Below are positions 1-13,999 of a stretch of 64,000 bases of DNA, one piece after another. The position numbers and the translations under genes are program-made. The notes below the pieces were generated by a model. That model was not told where the DNA came from. It was given only the letters and a program-made list of their open reading frames with translations, and did not search any database. The stretch spans positions 6,370,322 through 6,434,321 of the forward strand of contig NZ_CP036273.1 in the NCBI RefSeq assembly GCF_007747215.1. Direction: 5' to 3'. Origin of the DNA: Urbifossiella limnaea (GTDB lineage Bacteria > Planctomycetota > Planctomycetia > Gemmatales > Gemmataceae). Each line of letters opens with the position of its first letter. The first letter of the stretch is position 1.

Positions 1-1
1 C

Positions 2-199
2 GCCGAGGCTCAGCCGCTCCTCGCGGCCTTCCTCCCGCACTTCACGACCCCGACGTACACGCGGTTCGTCACCCTGGCCGCGGCGGCCATCCTGACGACC
101 GGCCGGCGGACCGTCGCCAACCTCCTCCGCACGGTCGGTGATCTGGCCCCGGGCTACGACGCGAGCTACCGCCGGGTGCTGTCGTCGGCCGAGTGGTAG
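2..199 (+). pseudogene. Transposase N-terminal fragment (IS4/IS701-like), broken
   Basis: Reading from base 2 gives an open frame that enters from the left edge and ends at a TAG at 197-199. The peptide contains PTYTRFVTLAAAAILTTGRR and ends LSSAEW, which resembles the N-terminal region of DDE transposases common in planctomycetes, where the reading would normally continue past the SAEW segment. Here it stops and the next sequence belongs to a different element. I infer a truncated remnant. Family assignment rests on memory of the motif only. Confidence 0.45.
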
Positions 200-215
200 C
201 GGCTCGAACTCGGGT

Positions 216-308
216 GTGGCCGTCACGCCGACGCAGTTGGCGATGCTCCTCTGCGGCCTCGACCCGGCCAAGGCCCGCGCACGCCGCCGGTACAAAACGC
301 CGGCGTGA
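216..308 (+). pseudogene. IS66 TnpB C-terminal remnant
   Basis: A short frame reads VAVTPTQLAMLLCGLDPAKA followed by a basic tail and TGA at 306-308. This matches the usual end of the IS66 accessory protein TnpB (a 'LT-x-x-Q-LAMLL-x-G-x-D' tail, then Arg/Lys-rich residues). Everything upstream of this tail is missing. The stop overlaps the next frame as GTGA, the usual tnpB/tnpC coupling in IS66 elements. Confidence 0.6.
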
Positions 309-700
309 TGCGCTACCGCGACCACTCCGCCGGTGTTGAATCCGGCATGCCGCCGACCGACGAGTGCGACGACCTCCGCCGCAAGTTGGCCCACGCCGAG
401 GCCGTGATCGCCGAACTCCGCGGCGTCGTGGCCGACCTCCGGAAGCAGGTCGAGGCGCAGCAGGCCCACATCCACCGCCTGGTGAAAATGACGTTCGGCC
501 GCGGCGGCGAGCGGGTCGAAGGCCCGACCATGTTCGACGGGATCGACCCGCCGGAAGCCGAGTTGCCCCCGCCGCCGGTCGAGCCGCCGGCCCCCGAACC
601 ACCGGCCTCGACGAAGCGGAAGTTCGGCCGCCTCCAGGAAGACCTCCTTGAGCGATTCGCGCTCCCGCCGTCGGTCAGTGAATCGCGACCCCGACTGTAA
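305..700 (+). pseudogene. IS66 TnpC N-terminal remnant
   Basis: 131 codons starting GTG-ATG. The N-terminal half has a leucine-zipper-like coiled coil (DDLRRKLAHAEAVIAELRGV) and then the conserved IS66 segment KMTFGRGGERVEGP plus a Pro-rich linker. The zinc-binding and DDE catalytic regions that should follow are absent: after STKRKFGR the sequence switches to unrelated residues and stops. A full IS66 transposase is about 500 aa, so this is a truncated, inactive copy. Confidence 0.65.
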
Positions 701-974
701 CCGGCCCCAAGAGCCAAGAGCGTCATTTCACCGTACGGCTACGTAGCACCCGGGCCGTTGCCGTTACTCGCGGGCGAGTTGCAGGCTAGTCATCCGGCGT
801 TCTTGACCAGGGCGTCCACGTCCACCACATCCGCCGTCGTCTTCCAGCACGTCCCCCACAAGACCCAACCCGAGGAACGGCCCCTGTGCAACCGCCGGGG
901 TGGAGGTCGATTCTTGACATGGCCGGTCATTCTGGGAGAATCCCGACTTCACCCAACCCAAGAAGGTCTCGCCC
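701..974. other. Intergenic stretch after IS debris
   Basis: I see no convincing gene here. The only feature I can support is a promoter-like sequence near its right end, listed separately. Confidence 0.5.
914..941 (+). promoter_or_regulatory. Sigma-70-like promoter for the GIY-YIG-like gene
   Basis: TTGACA at 914-919, a 16-nt spacer, then GAGAAT at 936-941. The -35 is a perfect consensus and the -10 matches four of six bases. It lies about 35 nt upstream of the GTG start at 975. Confidence 0.5.
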
Positions 975-1481
975 GTGGCAATCGTCAACTATGGCCTGTT
1001 CTGGCAGCGGGAGGAAGTGAACTGGAAGCCGGGACAGGGAGGGCAGTTTCGCCTGCTTGGCCGGAACGGGGTGAATAAGCCCGGCCTTCGCGTGGCGGAC
1101 TTCCGTGAGCAGACGGGCGTTTACATCCTCTACGGCAACTACGGGGTCTTCCGCGTCGGGATCGTTACGGAATCGCGTCTCGGCATTCGGCTACGTGACC
1201 ACCACACGAACTACAGTGAACACGAGTGGGACCGCTTTTCGTGGTTCGGGTTCCGTGCCGTGGACTGGAGCCCCGACGAAACGGGCGTGTGCGGGTTGAA
1301 CGATACCCGCTATCTCGATGCCGAAGCCTGGATTAGAGACATCGAATCGTTACTGATTCGGGCGATGGGGCCGACGGGCCAGCGTATCGAGAACTTCCGC
1401 TACGAAGAACGCTGGGAACAAGTCCCGGAGAGCGATGCAGTGTACTGGTTGAACAAGGTTCGGCCCGCCGGGGACGACTAA
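975..1481 (+). CDS. GIY-YIG-like nuclease-family protein
   Basis: 168 aa, GTG start with AGAAGG at 961-966. Residues about 47-75 contain TGVYILYGNYGVFRVG followed by RLGIRLRDHH, the spacing of a GIY-YIG core (GVYIL... in place of GIY, VFRVG in place of YIG, then a conserved Arg). A WDRFSWFGF segment follows, as in uncharacterised bacterial GIY-YIG proteins. These are usually single-domain nucleases of unknown target. The C-terminal half (about residues 100-168) is not recognised. It lies tail-to-tail with a frameshifted second GIY-YIG gene and has a good promoter of its own. Nuclease activity is inferred from the motif only; a binding-only role is possible. Confidence 0.55.
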   Translation: MAIVNYGLFWQREEVNWKPGQGGQFRLLGRNGVNKPGLRVADFREQTGVYILYGNYGVFRVGIVTESRLGIRLRDHHTNYSEHEWDRFSWFGFRAVDWSPDETGVCGLNDTRYLDAEAWIRDIESLLIRAMGPTGQRIENFRYEERWEQVPESDAVYWLNKVRPAGDD

Positions 1482-1716
1482 GGCTCATGCGTCCAGGGAC
1501 GGGAACGAGTGACTAGCCGAGCTCGAAGGCCACGCCCAGCCTGGCCGACGTAGCCAAGCTGATCGGCCCCCCCGCGACCCGGACCCGGTATAGTCCCGGC
1601 CCGGCTGGGATAAGACGGCTGTCCGACGCCCGGAAAGGGATGAACGGGCTCCACGACAACCCGCACCAGTTCGACGCGAGGAACGCCGGGTTCAAGTGGC
1701 ACCCGATCGGCGGCAT
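1478..1716 (-). pseudogene. Second GIY-YIG protein, frameshifted at a G7 run
   Basis: On the minus strand the frame from 1716 reads SWSPFIPFRASDSRLIPAG and then PGLYRVRVAGG, the first half of a GIY-YIG domain. At a run of seven C on the plus strand (about 1567-1573; G7 in the gene) it goes out of frame and stops as FELG. The adjacent frame continues immediately with QLGYVGQAGRGLRARL, the YIG half with its conserved Arg. One extra G would restore a single GIY-YIG domain. The restored protein would end at 1478, overlapping the neighbouring gene end, and is short for the family. A sequencing error in the homopolymer, a decaying gene or slippage are all possible. Confidence 0.55.
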
Positions 1717-1754
1717 TCTGGGGATTCAACGACACAGTTCGCGAGTCAGCCGCC

Positions 1755-2105
1755 TTAAAGGGCACGGTGAAGGAACTCCTCCGCCTGTGCGACTTCGTCG
1801 GGTTCACTTGCCCGAGCGGTCAGCTCTGCGGAAACCCGGTCCCCGCCGTACCAGTTGTCGCCCCGCTGTACCAGGTCGCCGGCCAGGTGGTCGCTCCACC
1901 CGGTATGCAACCAGACGGATTGCGGTGGGTTCTTCGAGCCACCGCGAACGATAAAGCTCATGTAGACGGCGTCCCGCCCGGGAACGGCCGCCTTGTAGCG
2001 GTCTGCACCGCTCGGCACTGGGGGAGAGCCCGTCACTTCCTCCACCACCCTGAACAGCCGCTCTGCGACTGCCCGTAGCTCGCCCTCAAGGCTTTCGACC
2101 TTCAT
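1755..2105 (-). CDS. Hypothetical protein (116 aa)
   Basis: ATG start at 2105. The protein begins MKVESLEGELRAVAERLFRV and has an acidic and amphipathic profile, with a tryptophan-containing centre (SVWLHTGWSDHL). I recognise no family. It looks coding because hydrophobic residues are regularly spaced and both termini are plausible. It is on the same strand as the two neighbours that surround it. No membrane segment or metal motif is visible. Confidence 0.45.
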   Translation of the reverse strand: MKVESLEGELRAVAERLFRVVEEVTGSPPVPSGADRYKAAVPGRDAVYMSFIVRGGSKNPPQSVWLHTGWSDHLAGDLVQRGDNWYGGDRVSAELTARASEPDEVAQAEEFLHRAL

Positions 2106-2195
2106 GCTTGCACCTGGATACCTTTCGCCGCAGGGCGAAGTGCAGGATAGGCTCCGCGATGGCCCCGATGATCGGCAACGAGGCCCGCCGACGTC

Positions 2196-2498
2196 TTACT
2201 TGCGATCCACCTCCCGGTAATAGATCAGGTCGATCACCGCTTCACCCTTTCCCAGCGTCGCCTCCTCCGGGTCATGCCCAGCAGCGGCGTACCGCTCGCG
2301 GAGCACCTGGGCGAGTGCCCGGCGTGTCGGGAGGGTGCGGGCGTCCCGGTGGTCGGCCCAGGCTGTAATGTCGTCCGCACCCCAGCCCGGTGCGACCGTC
2401 CACCCCTGATCGGCGAGGTAGCCCCGCCAGACCTCGGCGTCACTCACCGCCCCGATGTTCGAGATCCTCAAACGGACGGCATCGTACTGTGACTTCAA
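2196..2498 (-). CDS. Hypothetical protein (about 100 aa)
   Basis: The C-terminal part (SDAEVWRGYLADQGWTVAPG ... ending YYREVDRK) looks like real protein, with a compact alpha/beta pattern. I place the start at a TTG at 2498 because an AGAGGA ribosome site lies about 8 nt upstream. A longer frame to 2603 also begins with TTG but its extra residues look non-coding. That choice leaves a 158-bp divergent spacer to the next gene. Family unknown. Confidence 0.4.
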   Translation of the reverse strand: MKSQYDAVRLRISNIGAVSDAEVWRGYLADQGWTVAPGWGADDITAWADHRDARTLPTRRALAQVLRERYAAAGHDPEEATLGKGEAVIDLIYYREVDRK

Positions 2499-2656
2499 AC
2501 CTGGTTCCTCTGCTCCGACACTCAGCCCAGCTGGCCGGCAATCGGATTGTAGCGGGCGAGGATCGACACGCTGGACAGCCGGAAATGCTATACTTGTGGA
2601 CAAGGCAAGGTCTGCGGGTTACATGAACGGTACGCCCTCTCATATCCAGGTGACAC

Positions 2657-3028
2657 ATGGCCAAGAAGAAAGAAGATGAAGAGGCCGGAAACGGCTCGAT
2701 GACGAAGGCCGACGCGGTGCGGGCCGCCGTCGCCGAGGGGGTGACGAAGCCCCAGGACGCGTGCGAGTGGATCAAGACGAAGTTCGGCATCGACATCACG
2801 CCCCAGCACTTCAGCAGCTACAAGAGCCAGCAGGCGAAGAAGGAGGGTGGGATGACCAGCAGTGGCAAGCGTGGTCGCAAGCCCGCCCAGGTCGCAACGG
2901 GCGGTGGTGTCAGCGGCGGCAACGAGCGTTCGAGCAGCCCGGCGGAGCTCGCCCGTCAGGTCAAGGCTCTGGTGCAGCAGTACGGGGCGGAAAACGTCTC
3001 CGACATGCTGGCCGTACTCTCCGACTGA
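2657..3028 (+). CDS. Small conserved hypothetical, possible nucleic-acid-binding protein
   Basis: 123 aa, ATG start 9 bases after an AGGTG site. A Lys-rich start (MAKKKEDEEAG) leads into a helical core (about 15-60: DAVRAAVAEG ... ACEWIKTKFGIDITPQHFSS) that looks like a small helix-turn-helix-like fold. A basic low-complexity linker follows, then a C-terminal helix ending MLAVLSD. Proteins of this build recur in Gemmataceae as far as I recall, with no known function. It is followed 28 nt later by the next gene on the same strand. Confidence 0.6.
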   Translation: MAKKKEDEEAGNGSMTKADAVRAAVAEGVTKPQDACEWIKTKFGIDITPQHFSSYKSQQAKKEGGMTSSGKRGRKPAQVATGGGVSGGNERSSSPAELARQVKALVQQYGAENVSDMLAVLSD

Positions 3029-3055
3029 CCCCGCAGCCGGGATGGGAGTATCGCC

Positions 3056-3400
3056 ATGAAGGTCAGCGGGTGGAAGGACACCAGCAGCGACGTCGATGGG
3101 AACACCTACGGTCTTCGGCTCCGGTTCGAGGATCGGGACCGGGTCTTCGGCAGGCGGAGGCCAAAGGCCGTCTTCCTGCTCCTCGGCAACGCGAGCTACC
3201 GGATCCCGCTTCTCCCTGGCTTTTGGAACGAGTGCCCGGAATTCCGTGACAACGCCGAGCAGCCGACCCGCCGGTTGCTCGGGCTCTTGAACCTGCTCTG
3301 CTGGAAGAAGCGTAAACCCCCGAAGTTCGAGCTAGTCCACCTCGGGAAGGACCGATTCCGGCTCCATCCAGAGCCAGTGACGGCTGGCGGGGACGACTGA
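3056..3400 (+). CDS. Hypothetical protein (114 aa)
   Basis: Begins MKVSGWKDTSSDVDGNTYGL, basic overall (GRRRPKAVF, CWKKRKPPKF). No recognised family and no membrane segment. It follows the 123-aa gene by 28 nt, so the two are probably co-transcribed. Its TGA at 3398-3400 directly abuts the stop codon of the convergent zinc-ribbon gene, leaving no spacer. Confidence 0.5.
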   Translation: MKVSGWKDTSSDVDGNTYGLRLRFEDRDRVFGRRRPKAVFLLLGNASYRIPLLPGFWNECPEFRDNAEQPTRRLLGLLNLLCWKKRKPPKFELVHLGKDRFRLHPEPVTAGGDD

Positions 3401-3916
3401 CTACCGCTGCGACGTACCACCATCCGCTTGCAACTGTCGCTGGAGCCGTACCGATTCCTCCAAGACTGCAACCACTTTCAAAACCCCGCTGAACACGATC
3501 AGCCCGACCCCCGTGACCACCCGAACAAGTCGGTCATTGAGCCGTCCCGTGTTATGCACACGTCCCACCTGGCCCGGCACGTCGGTCGTGGTGTCCATGT
3601 CCAGCCCGGAAATCAGGCACACGGTCCCGACGACCAGCAGGATCATGGAGAAGAGATTCCGGTACGAGCCCGGGCGAGCTTTCCGATTCCTGCCGGGCGG
3701 AGACTCACCTCGCTTGGACGGGGGCGGTATCGAGGACTCAAGCGGAACGGTTTTTGGGCGAGCGGGGGGAGGAGGCGGGGGAAAAGGCGAGGATGCCGGG
3801 ACCCGGGCTTCGCTCCCGCACTCTGGACAGGTGGTAACGCCCCCGGTTGTCCCCCGCAGCCACTTCTCGCACTCGGGGCACTGAAACGTGACGGCCTTCG
3901 GGTTGGTGCTGCTCAT
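3401..3916 (-). CDS. Zinc-ribbon membrane protein
   Basis: 171 aa. Residues about 13-35 hold a zinc ribbon with two CxxC pairs (CPECEKWL and CPECGSEA). A long Pro-rich linker, a hydrophobic segment (MILLVVGTVCLISGL) and a second one (VVTGVGLIVFSGVLKVVAVL) follow. This architecture (cytosolic ribbon, disordered linker, membrane anchor) is very common in planctomycetes and mostly uncharacterised. It is convergent with the 114-aa gene with no gap between the stop codons. Confidence 0.6.
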   Translation of the reverse strand: MSSTNPKAVTFQCPECEKWLRGTTGGVTTCPECGSEARVPASSPFPPPPPPARPKTVPLESSIPPPSKRGESPPGRNRKARPGSYRNLFSMILLVVGTVCLISGLDMDTTTDVPGQVGRVHNTGRLNDRLVRVVTGVGLIVFSGVLKVVAVLEESVRLQRQLQADGGTSQR

Positions 3917-4110
3917 TGCTGGGTAAGGTCGGTAGCCAGCACTTGGGCGACTACCGCCGGTCTGCTCCTAAAGGAGGGAAAAGGGAACTGCGGCCGTCGC
4001 AGCCCTCGACGCGGTTAGCCCACCACCGCATGCCAGCGACCACGTCTGCCCCGTCCCGGGCAGCGGCATCCCGGCCCGGACGGCCTCCTCGGACGCTACC
4101 AACTCGATCG

Positions 4111-4124
4111 TGTTGCTGGCAACA
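4111..4124. promoter_or_regulatory. Candidate operator dyad for the XRE regulator
   Basis: TGTTGC-tg-GCAACA, a perfect 6-bp dyad followed by an AT-rich run (ACATTTTTGATTG). It lies about 60 bp upstream of the XRE start codon, the usual place for autoregulation by this family. Binding is inferred. Confidence 0.4.
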
Positions 4125-4184
4125 ACATTTTTGATTGAGCGGTTTCCCCCTCCTGCCGGGCGATGGCAGTGGGAGGGGGCTGCC

Positions 4185-4556
4185 GTGGCGAAGAAGGGGG
4201 TTCCGATCCGGCATGCGGGGGTAGTCGAGCGGTTCGCCGCCCGGCTCCGGGAACTGCGATTGGCCCGTGGGATGACGCAGGCAGACCTAGCCCAGCAAGC
4301 AAGCGTGACCCCGAACTACGTCGGGAAGTTGGAGAACGCTGGAGCCGCCCCAGGAATCGATCTGGTCGAGCGGCTCGGAGTGGCCCTCGGCGTGACGGCT
4401 TCGGACCTGCTGCAATCGAGCACCCCGAGCGACCCGCGACCTGTCCTCCGCGACCAGGCCCGCCGCCTCCTCGACCGCGTAGCCGAGGACGACCACGCCC
4501 TCACCTTTCTGGTTCCCCTCCTTGCCCGTCTGGCTGGCGGTCCTGGCAGCCTCTGA
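4185..4556 (+). CDS. XRE-family transcriptional regulator
   Basis: 123 aa from the GTG at 4185, chosen because a purine-rich ribosome site (GGGAGGGGG) precedes it; the frame is open further upstream. Residues about 14-68 form a canonical Cro/C1 helix-turn-helix: LRELRLARGMTQADLAQQAS then NYVGKLENAG. A helical C-terminus follows (VLRDQARRLLDRV). Such regulators typically repress mobile-element or defence genes. It precedes the low-GC metallopeptidase block on the same strand, and a dyad lies in its own promoter region, suggesting autoregulation. Confidence 0.75.
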   Translation: MAKKGVPIRHAGVVERFAARLRELRLARGMTQADLAQQASVTPNYVGKLENAGAAPGIDLVERLGVALGVTASDLLQSSTPSDPRPVLRDQARRLLDRVAEDDHALTFLVPLLARLAGGPGSL

Positions 4557-5032
4557 TCCCTTACACCGTGTGACTTTTCTGGGAAGAAGGGCTTCCGTCG
4601 CGTGCGGTACAGGAACTTGGGCGTTATTCACCTTCCCCGTCAGACCACTGCACTCATTCGTGTGGGCTTCCTGCCGGGGAGAAGAAGCCGTCTGCGGAGC
4701 AGGCTCGGCGTTCGAAAGAAGGACCAAAAAACACTTGCCACTGTACTCCGAGGACAGGTAAGCTGGGCGGTAATCAAGGGAGAGTTGCGGGCAAACAAGG
4801 TTCCATTCCAGTTCGCCTACGGCAGCCGGGGGTGAAGGGCTGAAAGACATCATCGCGGAGGCGAGGCGGGTGGGAGGGAGCATGCCCTCTGCACGGCCGC
4901 GAATAGATCGAAGAAAAACAACCTTCCCCCGGCTTGATTCAGCGAGGGACTTCAAGCGTCGCGATAATATTCAGGATTGGGCAGCGAAATGTGGATAAGG
5001 GCGGTAATCAACCTAGCCCGAGGCACGCTGGC
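4557..5032. other. Non-coding spacer before the metallopeptidase block
   Basis: I see no convincing gene. The sequence changes from GC-rich to visibly more AT-rich from about 4700 onward, the left edge of the compositionally distinct block. In-frame upstream start codons of the next gene (4934 ATG-like frame, 4991 GTG) fall inside this stretch, so its true start could lie here. Confidence 0.4.
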
Positions 5033-6115
5033 ATGACACGCCTACGTACATTTCAACAAATCTTGCAAGAAGACGAGCTGGTCGTCTTTCCACCACACAT
5101 CGGTTTTAAAGGTAACCCGGGAAATGCCGATGGCAGCGAGTTAAGCCGCCTTCAATGTGACCTCTTGAAATGGATGATCGAGCCTGTCCAGGGAGCCACT
5201 GAGTGCATCGTCCTGCCCAAGCCCGATCGTTATAAGGGCGAACCGAAGATGGTCACCCCAAAGACGATTATCAACTTTAGCGGTATGCCAAATGCATCGG
5301 CGCGCACCTTTGCCGGAGGCGAGTTGGAGATTCATCTCGGATTGCTGACTGCATTTGCTTCTCTCCCAAAGACCTACACGCTCGTAAACCGAGAGCTCTC
5401 TTGCTCTGAGCACCGTCTTGATCAACTTGCCAGTTTCGATCCACCGCGAGCAGTGCTGTTGGAGATTGCGAGTTTGGCACGGGCATGGGAAATGTCAGAG
5501 CAAGCCAACTGGCAACTATTGGTTCCTGTGATCGACGGTCTTGAGTCAAGCGCGAGCCGTGTCGGAGGGCGTGGCATGGTTTACCTCGTGGTTGGGCACG
5601 AGCTCACCCACTGGTTTGAGTCGCTTTACAAAGATGCGGAGTGGGAGCGGATGATGGCGGAGATACGAGGGCACATTGTCACTTGGCTCGATGAGGAGTC
5701 AGCCCTAGTGCGCCCCGCAGTACTCGCGACAGCACGAGAAGCACTCCGCGACCCGACTGTCATGGATTCATGGGTCCGAGAATTCCATGCTGACATGGGT
5801 GGATTTGAGTACCTTCACGCTACCGAGACACACGGCGGATGGGCGAAGAGTCCTGAAAAGCTGGCTTCCGCTTACATGCACGTTTCGTTCTTTTTCGCGT
5901 TGAATGCGATGGTTGAAACCCATCTTGAAAGACGTGAGCATGAGTATGACCACAGATCGCATCCGCCCTGGAACATTAGGAGAGCGGTCTTTTGCCATAT
6001 CCAGGCAAAGCGAATGGGAATGTCGCAACAAGATTACTTGTTCCGTCAGTTTGGAGCAGGCTTTGCGACCTCCATCTTAATGGATCGCATCCTCGATGTC
6101 TACTTGAACGGATGA
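5033..6115 (+). CDS. HExxH zinc metallopeptidase-like protein (first of two)
   Basis: 360 aa from the ATG at 5033 (in-frame alternatives 4991 and about 4934; none has a strong ribosome site). Residues about 186-194 read VVGHELTHWF, a zincin HExxH. About 61 residues later comes EFHADMGG (E near 250), which could give the third ligand as in gluzincins of the M48/U49 kind. The flanking sequence is not recognised; no signal peptide and no clear TM segment are present, so I expect a cytosolic enzyme. GC is lower than in the housekeeping part of the window. It forms a same-strand set with a small hydrophobic protein and another HExxH protein. Confidence 0.6.
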   Translation: MTRLRTFQQILQEDELVVFPPHIGFKGNPGNADGSELSRLQCDLLKWMIEPVQGATECIVLPKPDRYKGEPKMVTPKTIINFSGMPNASARTFAGGELEIHLGLLTAFASLPKTYTLVNRELSCSEHRLDQLASFDPPRAVLLEIASLARAWEMSEQANWQLLVPVIDGLESSASRVGGRGMVYLVVGHELTHWFESLYKDAEWERMMAEIRGHIVTWLDEESALVRPAVLATAREALRDPTVMDSWVREFHADMGGFEYLHATETHGGWAKSPEKLASAYMHVSFFFALNAMVETHLERREHEYDHRSHPPWNIRRAVFCHIQAKRMGMSQQDYLFRQFGAGFATSILMDRILDVYLNG

Positions 6116-6204
6116 GTCCCCAGCGACCTGGAGGCATATACTGCGAGCTTTCGCGATGACGGAGAGATCTTTCGGCTGAACGAGTTCACACCTAGGGAGA
6201 AACG

Positions 6205-6591
6205 ATGGAAAACGCTGACGAAATTGCTCGACTATTGAGTCTGTCGCAGGACGAGATCTACTTGGAGATCGGTCGCCAGCTTACAGGCCGTGAAGCCTTC
6301 CCTACGCCACCGGTACACCTCATCGCTAGGGCGAGAAGATGGGCCACCGAGAGGCTCGCCCAAGCGGTTTGTTCGAGCGACAAGCTGAAGGTGCTCTCGC
6401 GGCAGGATGTGCCAACGCAAGAAGTGATCCTTTCGATCAGTGCCGTGCTCGACGTGGTTAGCCACGTGCTTGGCGGTGTACCTGCCCTCACTGCAGCCGT
6501 CCTCATCGCTCGGGTGGGGCTGCACAACTTCTGTGCGGTGATTTGGGCAGCACAAGAGTCACACATCGCCCCAAAGGATGACTCGCGTTAG
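6205..6591 (+). CDS. Small hydrophobic-tailed hypothetical protein
   Basis: 128 aa, ATG start with GGGAG about 8 nt upstream. The N-terminal half is helical and charged (ENADEIARLLSLSQDEIY). The C-terminal half has two hydrophobic stretches (VILSISAVLDVVSHVLGG and LTAAVLIARVGLHNFCAVIW) that could span a membrane or form a helical hairpin. No family recognised. It sits between the two HExxH genes, 89 nt after the first. Its stop codon touches the inverted repeat that follows. Confidence 0.55.
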   Translation: MENADEIARLLSLSQDEIYLEIGRQLTGREAFPTPPVHLIARARRWATERLAQAVCSSDKLKVLSRQDVPTQEVILSISAVLDVVSHVLGGVPALTAAVLIARVGLHNFCAVIWAAQESHIAPKDDSR

Positions 6592-6657
6592 AAGCTCTGA
6601 CACAACCTCCGAGAACCCCCGGTTTTCAAGGCATTTTGGGGGTTGTGTCAGGGCTTC
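6591..6657. repeat. 17-bp inverted repeat, terminator or MITE-like
   Basis: Arms 6591-6607 and 6641-6657 pair over 17 positions with one G-U type mismatch; the loop contains a further CCCCC/GGGGG pairing option. It directly follows the stop of the small hydrophobic gene. It may be a strong terminator. The arm beginning GAAGCTCTGACACAACC also resembles insertion-sequence ends, so a miniature element is possible. Confidence 0.6.
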
Positions 6658-6741
6658 TTAGGTCTGGCAGCCGATAGTGCAAGTGCAGGCCGCGTTGAGT
6701 TGTGCTCAAGAACGGAGATCAAGGAATTGCAGGAGAGCCCT

Positions 6742-7896
6742 ATGGGACTTTATGAAGATTACGTTGACCTTCTTGCTCTACACAACGTAGACCCTCCTGA
6801 GAAAGTAACGCATGTCGATCTACTAAAGGGACTGGAACAGATGGCAGCCTCGTCAGACCCGACGCAGCGGGCGATCGGGGCGAAGGCAGTAGAGGTGCAT
6901 AATAAATATGGAAGCCAAGTTGATGAGTTCGTGCGGCGACATGGCAAGTATTCGGCGAGTGGCATGCTCGATACCTACGTCACTTTTATAAACGACGTGC
7001 TTCATCGAGAGGGCCGTACACTAAGAGACGACATCTTTATCGACGAGTTTCCAACAGGAGAATTCAATGCTTGCGCCGTACGGACCAATAATGGGCACCT
7101 GTGCTTATTGAACACCGGCCTTCTTAAGTTGCTGTATCATCTATCACTTTCGTCGTGCTATCTGATTAAAGGCAATGTATTGAATCAAACACTCGATTTC
7201 TCCGCGCGTTTAGCCTTGGAGGACGAAGCGTCACTGCCAGCTATCGGAGCAGCAATCAAATCGATCTACGCATACTTAGCGTTCGGACAGCATCCTTATC
7301 CGATAGAGATCCAAGAGGGAATGCACGAGGCCGCACTCTTATACGCCAATGGGATTGCGGGGGGAATGCGGACGTTCGTGGTTGGTCACGAACTTGCCCA
7401 TGTAACCCTGGGCCATCTAGATACGTCTGAAAAGCGCAGCGTCATCGCTGAGAATGGCCGGCTTGAGGTCGCTAGTAGCAGCCAGGAGCAAGAGTATGAA
7501 GCGGATTTAGAATCGCAACGGCTGATGCTCAAGATAACCGGTCCGGGTATGAGCTTTGCCTTTGGTGGCGTCTGCTTTCTCACTTGTGGCCTGATCGTTG
7601 AATCGTTCCAGTCAAAGCTTTTTGGTAGCACAGTGGACAGTCAGCGCCATCGCGCCACGCACCCACCGACGCACCTCCGCCTCATGCAGCTTTGGCAAGC
7701 CCTTGAACAGCAGGTGTCTAAGGATGAGCTTGCAGCAACTGCAACAATTGCCAGGTTGCTATTCGATTTATTATCTATTTTGGATGCGACGTCGATCGAA
7801 CATACTACAAATGGTATCAAGATACATTTCAACAAAGCTGCTATTGGGCAGAGCAGCGAGTTGCGTCGATCCCCTGATGCCCCCCCCGCAACATAA
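6742..7896 (+). CDS. HExxH zinc metallopeptidase-like protein (second of two)
   Basis: 384 aa. The ATG at 6742 is chosen because AGGAG lies 7 nt upstream; the frame is open further left. Residues about 213-222 read VVGHELAHVTLGH with the HExxH at about 216-220. E253 in QEYEADLES follows 37 residues later, the HExxH...ExxxD pattern of M48/M78-like gluzincins. A hydrophobic patch follows (GMSFAFGGVCFLTCGLIV) and then a helical C-terminus. Composition is distinctly AT-rich for this genome: bases 7141-7200 contain 22 G/C of 60. It is not a close paralogue of the first peptidase beyond the motif region. Substrate unknown. Confidence 0.6.
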   Translation: MGLYEDYVDLLALHNVDPPEKVTHVDLLKGLEQMAASSDPTQRAIGAKAVEVHNKYGSQVDEFVRRHGKYSASGMLDTYVTFINDVLHREGRTLRDDIFIDEFPTGEFNACAVRTNNGHLCLLNTGLLKLLYHLSLSSCYLIKGNVLNQTLDFSARLALEDEASLPAIGAAIKSIYAYLAFGQHPYPIEIQEGMHEAALLYANGIAGGMRTFVVGHELAHVTLGHLDTSEKRSVIAENGRLEVASSSQEQEYEADLESQRLMLKITGPGMSFAFGGVCFLTCGLIVESFQSKLFGSTVDSQRHRATHPPTHLRLMQLWQALEQQVSKDELAATATIARLLFDLLSILDATSIEHTTNGIKIHFNKAAIGQSSELRRSPDAPPAT

Positions 7897-7905
7897 GCAC
7901 CCCTT

Positions 7906-8148
7906 TCAAAGGAGAGCGGCTTTCTCTAAGGCGGCAATCGCTTCCTCGACCGGATCCGGCCCCTCTTCCTCTCTTTCGTAAAGGGAAGACACGATCCGCC
8001 GAGACTCGGGATCGGCCTCCTCGAGAGGGATACCTCCGCAGAGCACGTCCCAGAAATCCGACGGGAAGCCGTACTGGGTGGACTCCGGCGGCTGCTGAGC
8101 CTCCAGCCGGCCGACCCGGGCACGGAGCGAACGGGAGTAGTCCTTCAT
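7906..8148 (-). CDS. Small hypothetical protein downstream of the TerS-like gene
   Basis: 80 aa, ATG at 8148 overlapping the end of the upstream gene by ATGA, so translationally coupled. It starts MKDYSRSLRARVGRLEAQ (coiled-coil-like) and has an acidic C-terminus (EEEGPDPVEEAIAALEKAAL). No family recognised. The coupling suggests it works with the HTH protein upstream. It is convergent with the second metallopeptidase gene, 10 nt away. Confidence 0.55.
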   Translation of the reverse strand: MKDYSRSLRARVGRLEAQQPPESTQYGFPSDFWDVLCGGIPLEEADPESRRIVSSLYEREEEGPDPVEEAIAALEKAALL

Positions 8149-8552
8149 CGCTTCCCCTTTGGCCGGGCGGCCTCCAGCTCCTCGATCCTTGTCCGGAGCT
8201 CGACGGTGGACGTGACCTGGAGGAAGAGCTCGTACACGGTTTTCACGGCCTCTAGCTGCACCCCCTCGTTCTTCGCCCGGAAGAGCTTCTGGAGGCGATC
8301 GAGTGCGGCCCCGGCCATCATGTCGGACAGCCGGCCGAGGGCTCGCTCAGTCAGGTCGCGACGGAGAGCAGCCACCCGGGCGTTGAAGGCCGGGCTCCTT
8401 TTCCAGGTGTACACAGTCTGCACGCCGACTCGGCACTCACGACAAACGCGAGCCACGGTAGCCCCAGCGGCGAGGGCCGCGGCAACCTGCTCCTGACGCT
8501 CGGTCAGTTCCGTCCCGTTTTCTCCGTTTTCTTCTTGCCTAGCAGGTGCCAT
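8145..8552 (-). CDS. TerS-like / phage-type helix-turn-helix protein
   Basis: 135 aa. Residues about 15-55 hold a helix-turn-helix (LTERQEQVAAALAAGATVAR ... GVQTVYTWKRSPAFNARV), the layout of phage small-terminase N-terminal and insertion-element HTH domains: 'T-x-x-Q', an HTH, then 'W-x-x-xPxF'. A long helical region and a coiled-coil tail (LRTRIEELEAARPKGKR) follow, which could oligomerise. Phage satellites of the PICI type encode such small terminases to redirect packaging. Here there is no adjacent large terminase or structural gene. A plain DNA-binding regulator is the alternative. Confidence 0.5.
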   Translation of the reverse strand: MAPARQEENGENGTELTERQEQVAAALAAGATVARVCRECRVGVQTVYTWKRSPAFNARVAALRRDLTERALGRLSDMMAGAALDRLQKLFRAKNEGVQLEAVKTVYELFLQVTSTVELRTRIEELEAARPKGKR

Positions 8553-8620
8553 AGTCGTTCTCCTTTCCCTACTCGCTTCCCCAGACTGCCCTCGCCCTGC
8601 GAGACATTCCTGGGAGGGGG

Positions 8621-8721
8621 TAGAGGGTCTAGACAGTTAGACAGTTCCCCGGGAAGTGGGCGGGGCAAGTCGTTCCTATAATAATCTTCCTGCGAACCGT
8701 CTAAACTGTCTACACCCTCTA
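8621..8721. repeat. Long imperfect inverted repeat with TAGACAG motifs
   Basis: Arm 8621-8646 and arm 8695-8721 are near-complementary over about 26 bp. Each arm carries two copies of a TAGACAG-like heptamer. The spacer contains an AT-rich tract (TATAATAATC). It lies between the end of the primase gene and the start of the TerS-like gene. Possible roles are a replication origin for the primase, a regulator-binding site or a terminator. Confidence 0.55.
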
Positions 8722-8775
8722 GTTTACCTACTCGTTCTGCACGTATTGCAACACAAGCACGTCGGCCGTTCGCAA

Positions 8776-10518
8776 TTACGTGAGCCTCAGCCCCTTGCGA
8801 CCTACGCGTCCTGCAAGTGGCCCTGATTTATACATGACGGATTCGAACCCCCGCCGACCCAGATCCGTCCCGAAGGCCGTCTGCGTGATGCCAGAATCGG
8901 GGAACAGATCCATAAAGGCCCGATAGAGGTCAGATGCCGATGTAACGTAGTTCCCTCGCTCGCACCGCAAGTTCAGAAACTGTCCGATCACATCCTGCTC
9001 TCGTGCATACTTCGCCGTGGCGTCAGCGATGCACTTCGGCTCCATGAGCCCGCCCTTCTGCCACTCCATGCACCCCCGAACCATCCATGCGAGAATGCCC
9101 TGGGCCTCGGCTAGAAGCTTCCACGGAAGCTTGCGATCGACCTCGGACCCCTTAAATTGCCGCCGGAACTCGATCAGCTTCAGCCGTCGCCAGATCGCGT
9201 AATCGCAGCCCTTGACCTCGGGTTTGTAATTCGTGCCGAGCAAGATCTTGTGGGTCGGGCTGAACGTGGTGAAGTTCTCGTACATCCCGCGGCCGGTGAC
9301 CCGGTCTCCCCCGGTCAGGTGCTTAATCAGAGCCTCGTTCAGCTTGCAGCCGGCCTCCGTCTCTTGGGCCATCATCAGCCGCCGACCGCGGAGCGTCATC
9401 AGTTCGGTCGGGTGCCGATCCCCGTGGGTCGATACCTTGAACAGCGTCTGAGGGGGGCTGCCAGCGTGATCATCGCCTACGACAGCGAGCAGGGCATTGA
9501 CGAGGGTCGACTTCCCGTTACTCCCTCCCCCCCAGAAGATGGGGAGTACCTGCTCCGAAATATCTCCGGTCAGGCCGTACCCGAAGAATCGCTGGAGGTA
9601 GGCGATCAGTTCGCCATTCCCCTCGAAGACTTCTCGCAGGAATCGCTCCCATGTCGGGCAGGGGGCCGCGGGGTCGAACGGGGTCGGGCAGAGCTTGGTC
9701 AGGAAGTCGTAGCGGTCATGCGGCCGCAACTCGCCCGTCCGCAGGTCGAGTGTGCCATTTGGCACGTTCAGGAGCATCGGGCTGGCGTCCAACCTGGTTG
9801 CAGAAATCGCAAGCAGGCCGCGTGCGAGATCCACCATGTTGGTGATACCGTGAGCAGAGGAGGAGACTTTGGCGTAGGCGATGTACTGGGCCAGCATCGG
9901 CGGCGGGGCATCGGACCGAGCGATTTCCTCCCACAGCCTCGCGGGCACGGCCTTCGCCTTCTCCCTGACGACGATCCCGTTCGCATCCCGCACCCACCGC
10001 TGCCCATCCCAGACGATCCATTCCTTCCACTCGGGCACATACCGTAGGTCCGATCCGGCGAGTTCGACGAGCCGGTGTGCGTTCGCGACATCCGTGCGAC
10101 ACTCCGCCATCGACAGAAACTGGTGGAGGACAGGTACGGCATCATTGCCTGGCGGTGCTGCATCTGCCTCCGGAGTGTGTGGCCCTCCCTCGCTTTCCAC
10201 GAGATGCGAGGGTGCCGTCTGCTCGGAGCAGGGCTCGGAAGCTGAAGGCTCGGGGATCAGGGCTATCACGTCGGCACTATCGGCCCAAAGGACGGTTGGC
10301 CCGCCCCGTCTCCCCGAGTAGTCGGTTGGGTCGCCGCGGTGCTTCAGGACAGCGTGTTCGAGCGTCTCTCCGTACTTCGCCAGTAGGGTGCCAGGAGGTA
10401 GCCAGCCACTGGACCACTTCGTGTCCTTCGCCTCCTTTTCAGAAACGGGGTTCGGGGCCGTGCGGTTTTCCGAATTCGGCTGTGGACTTTTCTGTGCGGA
10501 TTCTGGAATCTTCGGCAT
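8776..10518 (-). CDS. P4/D5-type primase-helicase (SF3 ATPase)
   Basis: 580 aa, ATG at 10518. The first 130 residues are low-complexity. A D5_N-like region follows (about 140-300; PEWKEWIVWDGQRWV, LLNVPNGTLDL) and then an SF3 helicase core with Walker A GGGSNGKST near residue 330, an acidic Walker B region (RRLMMAQETE) and LLGTNYKPEV with IWRRLKLIEF downstream, as in phage/plasmid primases of the P4 C-terminal family. These proteins unwind and start replication of phages, plasmids and satellites. It is the clearest mobile-element gene in the island, 82 nt downstream of an HTH gene on the same strand. I could not identify a separate N-terminal primase catalytic motif, so it may act as the helicase part only. 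Confidence 0.85.
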   Translation of the reverse strand: MPKIPESAQKSPQPNSENRTAPNPVSEKEAKDTKWSSGWLPPGTLLAKYGETLEHAVLKHRGDPTDYSGRRGGPTVLWADSADVIALIPEPSASEPCSEQTAPSHLVESEGGPHTPEADAAPPGNDAVPVLHQFLSMAECRTDVANAHRLVELAGSDLRYVPEWKEWIVWDGQRWVRDANGIVVREKAKAVPARLWEEIARSDAPPPMLAQYIAYAKVSSSAHGITNMVDLARGLLAISATRLDASPMLLNVPNGTLDLRTGELRPHDRYDFLTKLCPTPFDPAAPCPTWERFLREVFEGNGELIAYLQRFFGYGLTGDISEQVLPIFWGGGSNGKSTLVNALLAVVGDDHAGSPPQTLFKVSTHGDRHPTELMTLRGRRLMMAQETEAGCKLNEALIKHLTGGDRVTGRGMYENFTTFSPTHKILLGTNYKPEVKGCDYAIWRRLKLIEFRRQFKGSEVDRKLPWKLLAEAQGILAWMVRGCMEWQKGGLMEPKCIADATAKYAREQDVIGQFLNLRCERGNYVTSASDLYRAFMDLFPDSGITQTAFGTDLGRRGFESVMYKSGPLAGRVGRKGLRLT

Positions 10519-10600
10519 AGGTTTCTCCTTGACCCATCGCAGCCTGCTCCCGGCAAGTAGGAGGCTGCGGTGGGTTACTTTGTTGAGGACAGTCCGAGGA

Positions 10601-11053
10601 TCATCGAGAACACGGAGCGTGCTGGGCGAGGCGTCCCAGCATGCACCTCTGAATGTCGGCGAGGTCGAGCCCGGGCGGCAGCATGCCTGCCTCGCCTGTA
10701 GGTTCGATCAGCTCACCCGGTACCCACTCTCCTCCGAGCCGAGCCGCCGGCACCGTGTACGTCCGACCGTCGGCGATGGCCGATTCCAGCGTGGTCGCGT
10801 CGAGAGAGCCCAGGCACTTCACCACACCGGCCACCCAATCCGCCCCTGCCCCAGCTTCACGCCAGCGGAGCCCGGCCATCACAGCAAGCACCTGCGTCTG
10901 GGAGAACAGGTGCGGGAAACCTCGGCCGCGGCCCCCGACCCGAACGGGTGTAAGCAGCCCCCTCCCGACCCACTGGGCGAGCGTCAGGCTTGGCAGCCCC
11001 GTGATTGCACATAGCTCCGCAGAGGTGAACCGATCTTGCAGTAGCTGTGTCAT
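10601..11053 (-). CDS. MerR/AlpA-like HTH DNA-binding protein
   Basis: 150 aa, ATG at 11053 with a G-rich site upstream. Residues about 8-50 (RFTSAELCAITGLPSLTLAQ then WVGRGLLTPV) fit a winged MerR/excisionase-type helix-turn-helix with 'LLTP' in the wing. The C-terminal part (about 60-150) is not recognised. It heads the leftward primase/TerS-like module and sits beside a large palindrome and repeats in the upstream spacer, which are candidate binding sites. A regulator or recombination-directionality factor role is inferred. Confidence 0.6.
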   Translation of the reverse strand: MTQLLQDRFTSAELCAITGLPSLTLAQWVGRGLLTPVRVGGRGRGFPHLFSQTQVLAVMAGLRWREAGAGADWVAGVVKCLGSLDATTLESAIADGRTYTVPAARLGGEWVPGELIEPTGEAGMLPPGLDLADIQRCMLGRLAQHAPCSR

Positions 11054-11628
11054 AAGCGATTACCCCCACAAGCCGTAGCGGCAGACCCAAATGGAACCCT
11101 ACCCAAACAGATCCAGCTTGGGAACGACAACCAAAAAGATAATAAACTATTCTGACGATCCGCGACGCGATCTCCGACGCCCTCATTCCAGGATCGGACG
11201 ATCTCTACACCGCTGAGCCTATCCGAATAGAGACGTGAGTTTCCAGAGTCACCGAGGATCGATCCTCTTTGAATCCACACATACGAGACTGGCGACGTAT
11301 GCCACACCTGGCAGGGGTGTCGAACGACACCATCCCTGCCTGGCATGGTGTGGTGACGTGAGTGTCAGTATGGACAGGGGTGTCAGAACCCGCCAAAGGA
11401 GCTTCGGACCGAGTTTGTGTGAGCAACTTTATGGGACTGGCGACGCATGCCACGTCTGACGGCAGGGGTTACTATGGCCCGCAACTGTGAGCATGGAAAG
11501 GGGGTCATTGTGGGCAGGAGTACGGCGCTCGCGGCCTACGTCCGCAGGTGGACCGACCGCGGCAAGGCCGAGCGGCAGGGGCCCGCGGGGGGACGGCCCC
11601 GCCACCGAGGCAGAACCCGCTCGAGCCG
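11054..11628. other. Control region with palindromes and direct repeats
   Basis: 575 bp without a convincing gene, between the HTH gene and the end of the AbiC-like gene. It holds an AT-rich patch (about 11128-11152) placed as the promoter of the HTH gene, plus the repeats listed next. This layout suits an operator, origin or attachment region of the mobile module. Confidence 0.5.
11287..11453. repeat. Nested palindrome and 19-bp direct repeat
   Basis: GACTGGCGACGYATGCCAC occurs at 11287-11305 and 11435-11453 with one mismatch. Between the copies, 11302-11353 forms a nested dyad: CCACACC/GGTGTGG outer arms, GGCAGG/CCTGCC middle arms and the perfect inner palindrome GGTGTCGAACGACACC at 11316-11331. 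Further GGTGTC copies follow. Confidence 0.65.
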
Positions 11629-12624
11629 TTAACTTGGAAGCGGCTGGCCTTCCGGGACTGCGTGCCCGGCGGCTCTCAGGTATTCGAGGATGACGTGGTA
11701 CGGGTGCACCCGGCCTTGCCCGGGGTGGAAGTGCGCCTTCATCTTCTCGACGAACTGCGCAAGAACTTGGCCCCGCTCTTGGCCCATTACTTCGAGGTAG
11801 TCTGGGGCGATAGCGATGCCAGCCTCCTTCCGCTCGTGCTCCCGCGCAAGCCATACACGAGAATAGTTGAGGTAGACCTGTAGGGTCTGGCGAAAGCACA
11901 GAAGGCACTTCTGTGCCCGGTCTTCAGACGTTCCTCCACCGTGCCAGTATGCATCACCAAGCGTTGCGCCGTCTTCAGTCGATTTGTTATCTCGCACATT
12001 GCGCACATGCCTGGTCATTGCTTCGAGGTAGATTGCTGACGGCCGCTGCCCTACCCGGTGCAGGAGCCACACGACTTCCCGCAGAATCTGCTTTGTCACC
12101 TCCTTGAGGTAGTAGGGCTTCTCACTCCACCATGTTGCGAAGCCGAGGTGAGGCATCACGATCTCGAACATAACCTCAGTGTAGTAAAGCGTCTCGTCGT
12201 TCTCGGTTGACAGGTATGTGTCGGCGATTGCTGCGAGCTTGTCGTCCTCGGCCTCGAACCGGTGAAGGTGGAACTCCTGCTGCTGCTTCGCGAGTTGCTT
12301 GCGCTGTAGGTGGATCGTGTACCCCACCCCGACCAGAGAAAGCCCCGCGAGTAAAGACCCCACGACCCCGAACATGTCACCGAACTTCCCCCGGTCGTCG
12401 AGTTCGGACTGGGCGATGATGCCGTACCACGGCCGCTCGGGCGCGGCAGGAGCGGTCGACGGCAGCGTCCCCTCGGCGTGCGGTATGGGCGGCGCTCCAG
12501 GTCGGTCGTCGTAAACGAGGGCTGTGTAGCCGAGGACCACAACGAGCAGCCACAGGAGTACCACGCCGAAGCATGAAATGCCGGCGATAGACTCGGCGCT
12601 CGGCCTGCGCGGTTTGACGTCCAT
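11629..12624 (-). CDS. Two-TM protein with AbiC-like (putative abortive infection) topology
   Basis: 331 aa from the ATG at 12624; the frame extends to 12897 but those residues look non-coding and would overlap the divergent gene. TM1 is at about 14-33 (GVVLLWLLVVVLGY). After a Pro-rich loop, FGDMFGVVGSLLAGLSLVGV at about 87-107 forms TM2, followed by TIHLQRKQLAKQQQEF and a long helical cytosolic domain. The 'FGD-x-FG...GL...TI-x-LQ' junction is the pattern I know from proteins annotated as putative phage abortive infection proteins; the rest of the domain does not clearly match. It is divergent to a helical R-x4-H protein. A defence role is inferred, not shown. Confidence 0.5.
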   Translation of the reverse strand: MDVKPRRPSAESIAGISCFGVVLLWLLVVVLGYTALVYDDRPGAPPIPHAEGTLPSTAPAAPERPWYGIIAQSELDDRGKFGDMFGVVGSLLAGLSLVGVGYTIHLQRKQLAKQQQEFHLHRFEAEDDKLAAIADTYLSTENDETLYYTEVMFEIVMPHLGFATWWSEKPYYLKEVTKQILREVVWLLHRVGQRPSAIYLEAMTRHVRNVRDNKSTEDGATLGDAYWHGGGTSEDRAQKCLLCFRQTLQVYLNYSRVWLAREHERKEAGIAIAPDYLEVMGQERGQVLAQFVEKMKAHFHPGQGRVHPYHVILEYLRAAGHAVPEGQPLPS

Positions 12625-12819
12625 GGGCGGATTGTCCGAATGGTCTGGGAGAGCGAGAGTATAAGTGCCTTCGGCCCGTCTGGTCAACCGACCGCACCAC
12701 AATCTCCTGATGCTCCTCGCTTCGCGGCTGCTTCTAGCCTTGATCCGCGAACCCGAGGGCCGGCCAATTGGTCTATATGTGTTCAGGTACACGCAACCCG
12801 ACTCGATGAGGGCGAAATC

Positions 12820-13572
12820 GTGGGCGAGAAACCGACATCGTGGGTGGAGCAGATGTGCCGCCATCTCGCCGAGGTCGAGCGAGAAACGACGGAGCAATTG
12901 GGCGAGCTGGAGCGTGGCTTCTTCGTGAACGTGGCGAACGACTGCACGGACATCGGCTTCGCCGTCAGCCAGGCCTACCCCCGGAAGGTCAACCTCGTGC
13001 TACACACCGGCTGGGGCGTCTTCAAAGAGGCGACGTGGTTCCAGTTCCTTTTCGTATCGGGCAACTACCCCCTGCTCCTGAGCCGGCTGCGGTATGTGTG
13101 GGAGGCAGTATTCCGGGCGTACTTCGTGGAGAACTACCCTTTTCGGAATAGCCCTTCCTCCTGGGTCGCTCCGGGGCGGTCGGCGGCAAAGAAACTGGTG
13201 TGGCTGGAAGAACACGGCCGAGCACTGGATTGGAACCGGTGCATGGAGCCGGTTCTCCGGGCGGTCTTCCCGCTAGCGGACAGTGAGCCCGAAGTTCGGG
13301 AGCATTACCGACGCCGGTGGGGCGAACTTCACAAGTACGTTCACGCGTCTGCGTACCTGGCCGGCCGCATGGTCGGCAAGTCGGCACTCCACTTAAGTGA
13401 CAAATTCGATCGGAAATGGGCGAAGGAGTGCGTCGCCATCGCCCGCGAGGTGTTCGACCTCGTTTGGATGGCGGTCCTGGGTCATCACCCTATGGCGGCC
13501 GATCGGATGCACCGCCTCTCCGGGGAGTACCCGGTGCTCAAGAGGGTGTTTGAGAAGATGAACGAGTCCTGA
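12820..13572 (+). CDS. Helical protein with R-x4-H motif (HEPN-like candidate)
   Basis: 250 aa from the GTG at 12820, chosen because AGGG lies about 8 nt upstream and it leaves a 195-bp divergent spacer; a longer frame to 12640 would leave only 15 bp. The protein is almost all helix (VEQMCRHLAEVERETTEQLG ... FVSGNYPLLLSRLRYVWEAV). Near residue 170 HYRRRWGELHKYVHAS contains R-x4-H, the short motif of HEPN ribonucleases, in a helix followed by a second long helix pair. No named family recognised. Pairing with a membrane AbiC-like protein suggests a two-gene defence unit; equally it could be an unrelated cargo gene. Confidence 0.45.
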   Translation: MGEKPTSWVEQMCRHLAEVERETTEQLGELERGFFVNVANDCTDIGFAVSQAYPRKVNLVLHTGWGVFKEATWFQFLFVSGNYPLLLSRLRYVWEAVFRAYFVENYPFRNSPSSWVAPGRSAAKKLVWLEEHGRALDWNRCMEPVLRAVFPLADSEPEVREHYRRRWGELHKYVHASAYLAGRMVGKSALHLSDKFDRKWAKECVAIAREVFDLVWMAVLGHHPMAADRMHRLSGEYPVLKRVFEKMNES

Positions 13573-13999
13573 CTATCGAGCAGCCACTTCCGGCCCCGGC
13601 TGATTGCCTCGAAGCAAACTGGTTAGCCGAATCGCTTCCCGTGACTTTTCGGAACCGAATCGCGAACCACCCTCCGAAGTGGGCGTCTATTGAGTGCACC
13701 GGCAATACCTGAGGCCAAAACCCTGCGGAATTCTTAGTGCAAGATGAAAGTTGAGCAGCATTTCGCGAAACCGGCTCAACCAGCCGGCGGCTTCGCCAGC
13801 AAGGTACGGAAGACGCAATAGCCCTACCGCAGAACGCGACATGCGTTCCGGCCAGGGTAGACCCCTGGCCGTCTTCGTTTCGGGCAAGCCGCAGGGGGTC
13901 GGGTCACCCGCCAACCCGGCCGAAGGGAATCACCAGGGGGCTGGTGACAGGGGCAGCACGAAAAAGGTTCGACTCCGTCTCCCCGTTTCGTGAACACGC
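13573..13999. other. Spacer between island and tRNA cluster
   Basis: 427 bp with no convincing gene. It contains a terminator-like hairpin (GGCCAGGG at 13850-13857 with CCCTGGCC at 13863-13870, followed by a T-containing tail). From about 13970 to 13985 a stretch (GGTTCGACTCC) resembles a tRNA T-arm without a complete cloverleaf, possibly a degraded tRNA. The island's right boundary probably lies here. Confidence 0.4.

Follow-up and report, generated by a model that had tools for sequence, protein, structure and literature searches.

Most described phage satellites come from Proteobacteria and Bacillota; more recently, types from Cyanobacteria and Actinobacteria have been added (PMC11389934). 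PICI are recognized by an integrase, a regulator and a replication module, by the absence of structural genes, and by a size of ~12-15 kb; their attachment sites are fixed and are not used by prophages, and some PICI carry their own small terminase subunit, TerS (PMC6092414). The PICMI of Vibrionaceae have an AlpA regulator, integrate at fis, and carry an ATGA-coupled small gene that overlaps int (PMC10803314). Our search of the open literature, outside which most subscription journals lie, found no description of a satellite in planctomycetes.

The window analyzed here is a stretch of 64,000 nucleotides taken from a complete Gemmataceae chromosome of 7.8 Mb (bases 6370322-6434321). An earlier note on this DNA had drawn a phage-satellite-like module of four leftward genes at 7906-11053, and had supposed that a missing integrase might lie outside the window. 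All four ORFs are found at these positions, open, intact and with coding-like codon bias; in order of transcription they encode a MerR_1 regulator, a D5_N/DUF5906 helicase, a TerS-like HTH protein and an 80-aa protein. An integrase, a 674-aa large serine recombinase, is indeed located beside tRNA-Asn, 4.5-6.5 kb left of window base 1. The anatomy of the locus is satellite-like, as the note had proposed, in a unit larger than it had drawn (20.4 kb). We favor, with some reserve, the reading that this unit is a PICI-like phage satellite of ~20 kb with defence-like cargo; its mobilization and packaging by a helper phage are predictions of this reading.

Like PICI and SaPI, the element combines an integrase, a regulator and a replication module in one unit without structural genes, and it carries a TerS, as some of them do. 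It differs from them in its large serine recombinase, in having a MerR_1 protein in place of Stl or AlpA, in its primase-less helicase, in a TerS partner with a TerL-like N-terminus, and in its planctomycete host. At 20,412 bp it exceeds the PICI range of ~12-15 kb, and a sister element in genome G023 spans 11.7 kb. With PICMI it shares an integrase, a small HTH protein, a DUF5906/DUF3987 replication protein, an ATGA-coupled gene and the absence of capsid genes. Membership is excluded: its regulator is MerR_1 and not AlpA, its site is tRNA-Gln and not fis, and its ATGA overlap is with TerS and not int. It is not P4-like, having no primase domain and no psu, delta or sid PHROG match in the scanned ORFs, and it is not a capsid-forming PICI, as no capsid, portal or TerL of its own was found in those ORFs. 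The closest layout outside planctomycetes is that of the Thermaerobacter sp. FW80 'plasmid' NZ_CP037897, an 8.4-kb circular record with an integrase, MerR, HTH protein, P4-type primase (43.7% to the window's), TerS and no annotated TerL. Unlike the element, this record is circular, comes from Bacillota, and has a tyrosine integrase and a TerS of another family (phrog_6299, 1.2e-14).

An element inserted in a tRNA-Gln gene

The element has inserted site-specifically into a tRNA-Gln(UUG) gene. The 5' part of the interrupted gene adjoins tRNA-Asn (~L006 13505-13561), and its displaced 3' end, with a GGTTC core, forms attR at the right end (13966..13986, + strand). When the flanks are joined at the common T-arm GGTTC, ARAGORN recognizes a tRNA-Gln(ttg) whose acceptor and T stems are perfect. 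Since the gene is split at both ends and perfect on joining, we take the element to be the 20,412 bp from 6363875 to 6384287 of the genome. Positions 1..13970 of the window belong to it, and its leftmost 6.4 kb, serine recombinase included, precedes window base 1. Its GC content, 60.4%, is below that of the two flanks (72.1% and 70.4%). The tRNA-Asn region and the right side share no exact direct repeat of at least 13 bases, so the insertion site was worked out from the split tRNA. The left and right flanks of the host are non-adjacent in the relatives compared, and we therefore took as reference the intact tRNA pair of a sister genome (G088), in which tRNA-Asn is followed by an uninterrupted tRNA-Gln(UUG). 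This intact tRNA also means that the module genes are not fixed at the site, and so counters the concern of the earlier note that they might occupy the same position in all relatives. A second tRNA-Gln(TTG) at 7463276 makes loss of the split copy tolerable.

The recombinase has the Resolvase, Recombinase and zinc-ribbon domains of large serine recombinases and matches integrases of phrog_95 (3.5e-79). The split gene places the insertion in the T-loop of tRNA-Gln(UUG), where this enzyme would have inserted the element and from which it may also excise it.

Between recombinase and module lie genes for a ParB-like protein that matches PD-Lambda-5_A (3.5e-20), a 318-aa protein of no assigned function, a DNA methyltransferase, a CI-like/CapH-like HTH protein (4110..4556, + strand; phrog_4, 3.3e-12; PADLOC capH, 2.6e-12) and two HExxH proteins. 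One of the latter, of 393 aa (4934..6115, + strand), has the motif HELTH and belongs to no family; the other, of 417 aa (6643..7896, + strand), has a HELAH metallopeptidase motif and a weak Lit/CapP match. The HTH protein is possibly the repressor of the element or a defence regulator, judging by its matches. The module had been described as surrounded by defence-like cargo and IS debris. The first description holds for part of the cargo, through the PD-Lambda-5_A and CapH matches, and the second refers to an IS66-like transposase fragment (305..700, + strand) assigned to its family by eye, from sequence inspection only. IS debris in the element suggests some decay. No structural gene had been visible in the window, and in the 20.4-kb element PHROGs and Pfam searches found no phage structural or lytic gene, capsid, portal and TerL included, among the scanned ORFs, which comprised part of the small ones.

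A probable terminase small subunit and its partner

The 135-aa TerS-like protein (8145..8552, - strand) finds its best PHROG match in phrog_2538, terminase small subunit (9.6e-10), and scores just below the cut-offs of PF13022 and HTH_23. A five-row profile of the family, searched against 95 Gemmataceae genomes, detects it in 43, with 13 copies in the window's genome and 45 in G092; several of the ~45 places in G092 lie within long open frames. TerL was sought as one family only, phrog_2, which has matches in 55 of the 95 genomes. Of 102 placed members of the TerS family, 11 are followed directly by such a TerL, in the same orientation and no more than 161 bp away (~0.007 expected by chance). 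A relative of the D5 helicase lies upstream, on the same strand and within 5 kb, of another eight, the window locus included (~0.1 D5-TerS pairs expected by chance). No member has both neighbors, and the phrog_2 search found no TerL at any of the eight D5-linked loci. These 11 relatives hold the place immediately before TerL that TerS genes have in phages; the window copy itself is without a TerL. Because family members directly precede large terminases, the match is not to an unrelated HTH family, an outcome the earlier note had named as fatal to its proposal. The five-row profile had no match among viral contigs; a wider profile retrieved the sole relative there, on a contig (L142) where TerS is followed by TerL and then by a portal-type head-tail adaptor.

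Against PDB sequences, the TerS profile gave chance matches only, to coiled-coil and designed-repeat proteins. Small terminase subunits are marked by an HTH at the N-terminus and a hairpin for oligomerization. An AlphaFold2 model (12 sequences; pLDDT 81, pTM 0.56) predicts an N-terminal three-helix HTH followed by a long helical hairpin, an arrangement shared with phBC6A51 (2ao9) and with TerS of G20C, NV1, PaP3 and Sf6. The top Foldseek match of the model in the PDB is 2ao9 (E 0.07), to which sequence identity is low (13-17%). VIA-align Z values, 8.0 for 2ao9 and 4.8-5.3 for TerS of G20C, NV1, 44RR, PaP3, Sf6 and E217, are modest for helical proteins, and gene context weighs more than fold. 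Together, context and predicted fold make it very probable that this is a genuine small terminase subunit.

The family cannot serve as a general mark of satellites: it occurs in 13-45 copies per genome and in several contexts, often beside ParB-methylase and primase genes, and no integrase was detected near many of the copies. Nor do the D5-linked copies form one clade. They are intermixed with TerL-linked copies in the tree, which requires at least three changes.

The earlier note had described TerS as coupled to an 80-aa partner, and the two ORFs share an ATGA tetranucleotide (partner, 7906..8148, - strand). The partner has no match in Pfam, PHROGs or phage records. Where TerL is missing, TerS is usually followed by a gene that has the ATGA overlap and opens with a short segment of the type R-x-R-V/L-x-x-L-E; TerL proteins of TerS-TerL loci have a comparable N-terminal segment ahead of Walker A. 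We scored ORFs picked by a fixed rule with a 12-column matrix built from ten TerL N-termini only. TerS partners exceeded the 95th percentile of controls in 31 of 47 cases (Mann-Whitney p = 2e-17, which overstates independence, given the relatedness of the loci), and the window's 80-aa protein outscored all 378 controls. Short amphipathic helices readily resemble one another; with this caveat, we infer that the partner segment and the TerL N-terminus may be of common descent. The N-terminus of TerL contacts TerS in some phages. For this reason, the coupled 80-aa protein may be an adaptor or a decoy that docks on TerS.

Replication protein, regulator and related elements

The replication protein (580 aa; 8776..10518, - strand) is a D5/SF3-type helicase with D5_N (1.9e-36) and DUF5906 domains and the Walker A motif GGGSNGKST. 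Of the P4-type primase-helicase claimed for it earlier, the helicase stands and the primase does not: Pfam and PHROGs reveal no recognizable primase domain, and the match to phage primases is limited to their C-terminal part (phrog_6088, from position 318 of 772). The regulator (150 aa; 10601..11053, - strand) had likewise been called MerR/AlpA-like. It scores 23.7 bits against PF13411 (MerR_1; cut-off 21.6) and has no match to AlpA (PF05930), leaving MerR as the part that holds. It aligns with homologues beside serine recombinases in G023 (36% identity) and G009 (34%).

In G023, a serine recombinase 45% identical to that of the element is divergent from the MerR gene. Beyond MerR come a Toprim/DUF3987 primase-helicase, an ORF of 163 aa, and TerS with an ATGA-coupled partner. 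This 11.7-kb element is bounded by a 46-bp perfect repeat, with one copy in tRNA-Val(CAC) and the other where the recombinase gene ends, and in the tree its TerS and that of the window are sisters (support 100/98). Recombinase, MerR and TerS thus travel together, and the replication protein is swapped. In G009, a recombinase and MerR stand beside a D5 protein 59% identical to the window's, and no TerS match was found at the locus; helicase relatives such as this one have a DUF3854 N-terminus. At two D5-TerS loci of G010 the integrase is of the tyrosine type, and one of these loci also has an HTH_17 (AlpA-like) gene. The co-occurrence of these genes with integrases at variable loci, which the earlier note had predicted, is borne out by the element's own tRNA-Gln, the tRNA-Val of G023 and the two loci in G010. 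A search of genome contigs with the D5 protein gave no confirmed relative among related loci.

Two further Gemmataceae D5 loci (L062, 11979-12701; L066, 7283-7939) have a TerS of a different family, phrog_51, near the helicase. This suggests that such elements acquire TerS repeatedly. A 4.3-kb scaffold assigned to a cyanobacterium (Amazonocrinis nigriterrae CENA67 scaffold88) carries a D5 relative and a TerS 82% identical to a planctomycete member, and represents contamination or recent transfer.

Satellite, remnant or plasmid

How might such a satellite operate? Its leftward operon would be controlled by MerR, perhaps together with the CI-like repressor. Upon infection or induction of a helper, the D5 helicase would replicate the circular excised form, relying on a primase that the element does not supply. 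The element's TerS could then mark its own DNA for the TerL and capsid of the helper, both absent from the element. The remaining genes would be cargo, partly anti-phage-like. Against the satellite reading stand a length of 20.4 kb, above the usual size, the missing primase domain, the IS debris with the decay it suggests, the multi-copy nature of TerS and a TerL search confined to one family.

The best surviving alternative, which we regard as unlikely, is a defective prophage remnant: an ordinary temperate phage, stripped of its morphogenesis genes, that still has integrase, helicase and TerS and later gained cargo and IS. Large serine integrases and TerS are phage genes, IS debris is present, and TerL-linked and D5-linked TerS interleave in the tree. 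However, the TerL-less gene set is found again in G023, where its ends are exact, and as D5-TerS pairs in several genomes; none of the four genes is broken, their codon bias is coding-like, and coupling of TerS to its partner is maintained at many loci. Slightly less probable still is an integrative plasmid-like element that uses D5 replication but is transferred by other means, with the TerS-family protein binding an origin or promoter as a regulator and taking no part in packaging. Relatives of the D5 helicase are common on plasmids, planctomycete and other, and the many TerS-family copies, often next to ParB-methylase and primase genes, would suit such a role. This account fits poorly with family members that hold the TerS position before TerL and with the TerL-like start of the partner, and neither a relaxase nor a ParA-type partition gene was found among the scanned ORFs of the element. 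That the locus is a defence or genomic island, presently immobile, with the four genes as hitch-hikers, is very improbable: PD-Lambda-5_A-like ParB, methyltransferase and CapH-like cargo agree with it, but the recombinase is intact and the tRNA junctions are exact.

One could go beyond the satellite reading and envision a previously undescribed class of Gemmataceae satellite that seizes packaging with its own TerS and a small coupled protein, in effect the N-terminal segment of TerL as a gene of its own; we offer this as a tentative idea that is more doubtful than not. If true, the TerL-segment protein could link TerS with proteins of the helper or keep helper TerS and TerL from making contact, and its TerL-like start makes this a testable idea for how satellites take over packaging. 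A satellite type in Planctomycetota would extend satellites to a further phylum. Little is known of the phages there, and elements that carry a TerS might be used as bait to find them.

A 12.5-kb plasmid of Planctomyces sp. SH-PL62 (pPL62-4, NZ_CP011277) encodes a D5 helicase 42% identical to the window's, a replication initiator and a phage major capsid protein, with no terminase named; it is perhaps a phage-plasmid or a satellite in circular form. In the window's genome, a prophage-like locus at 7.350-7.369 Mb has portal, capsid, TerS and TerL genes and, by its gene content, could possibly be a helper-type locus. Here, the HK97-type capsid gene of another prophage is interrupted by a 14.3-kb element (7351601-7365902) that encodes its own serine recombinase, an HTH protein, capsid, portal, TerS and TerL; the two gene pieces correspond to PF05065 1-77 and 79-277. 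This element resembles helper-embedded PICI (PMC10111431) and differs from them in its serine recombinase, TerL and portal. Elsewhere in the genome, 17 tRNA genes, many duplicating tRNAs found at other sites, are packed into 1.7 kb (1566637-1568373), a dense array that is possibly phage- or element-borne.
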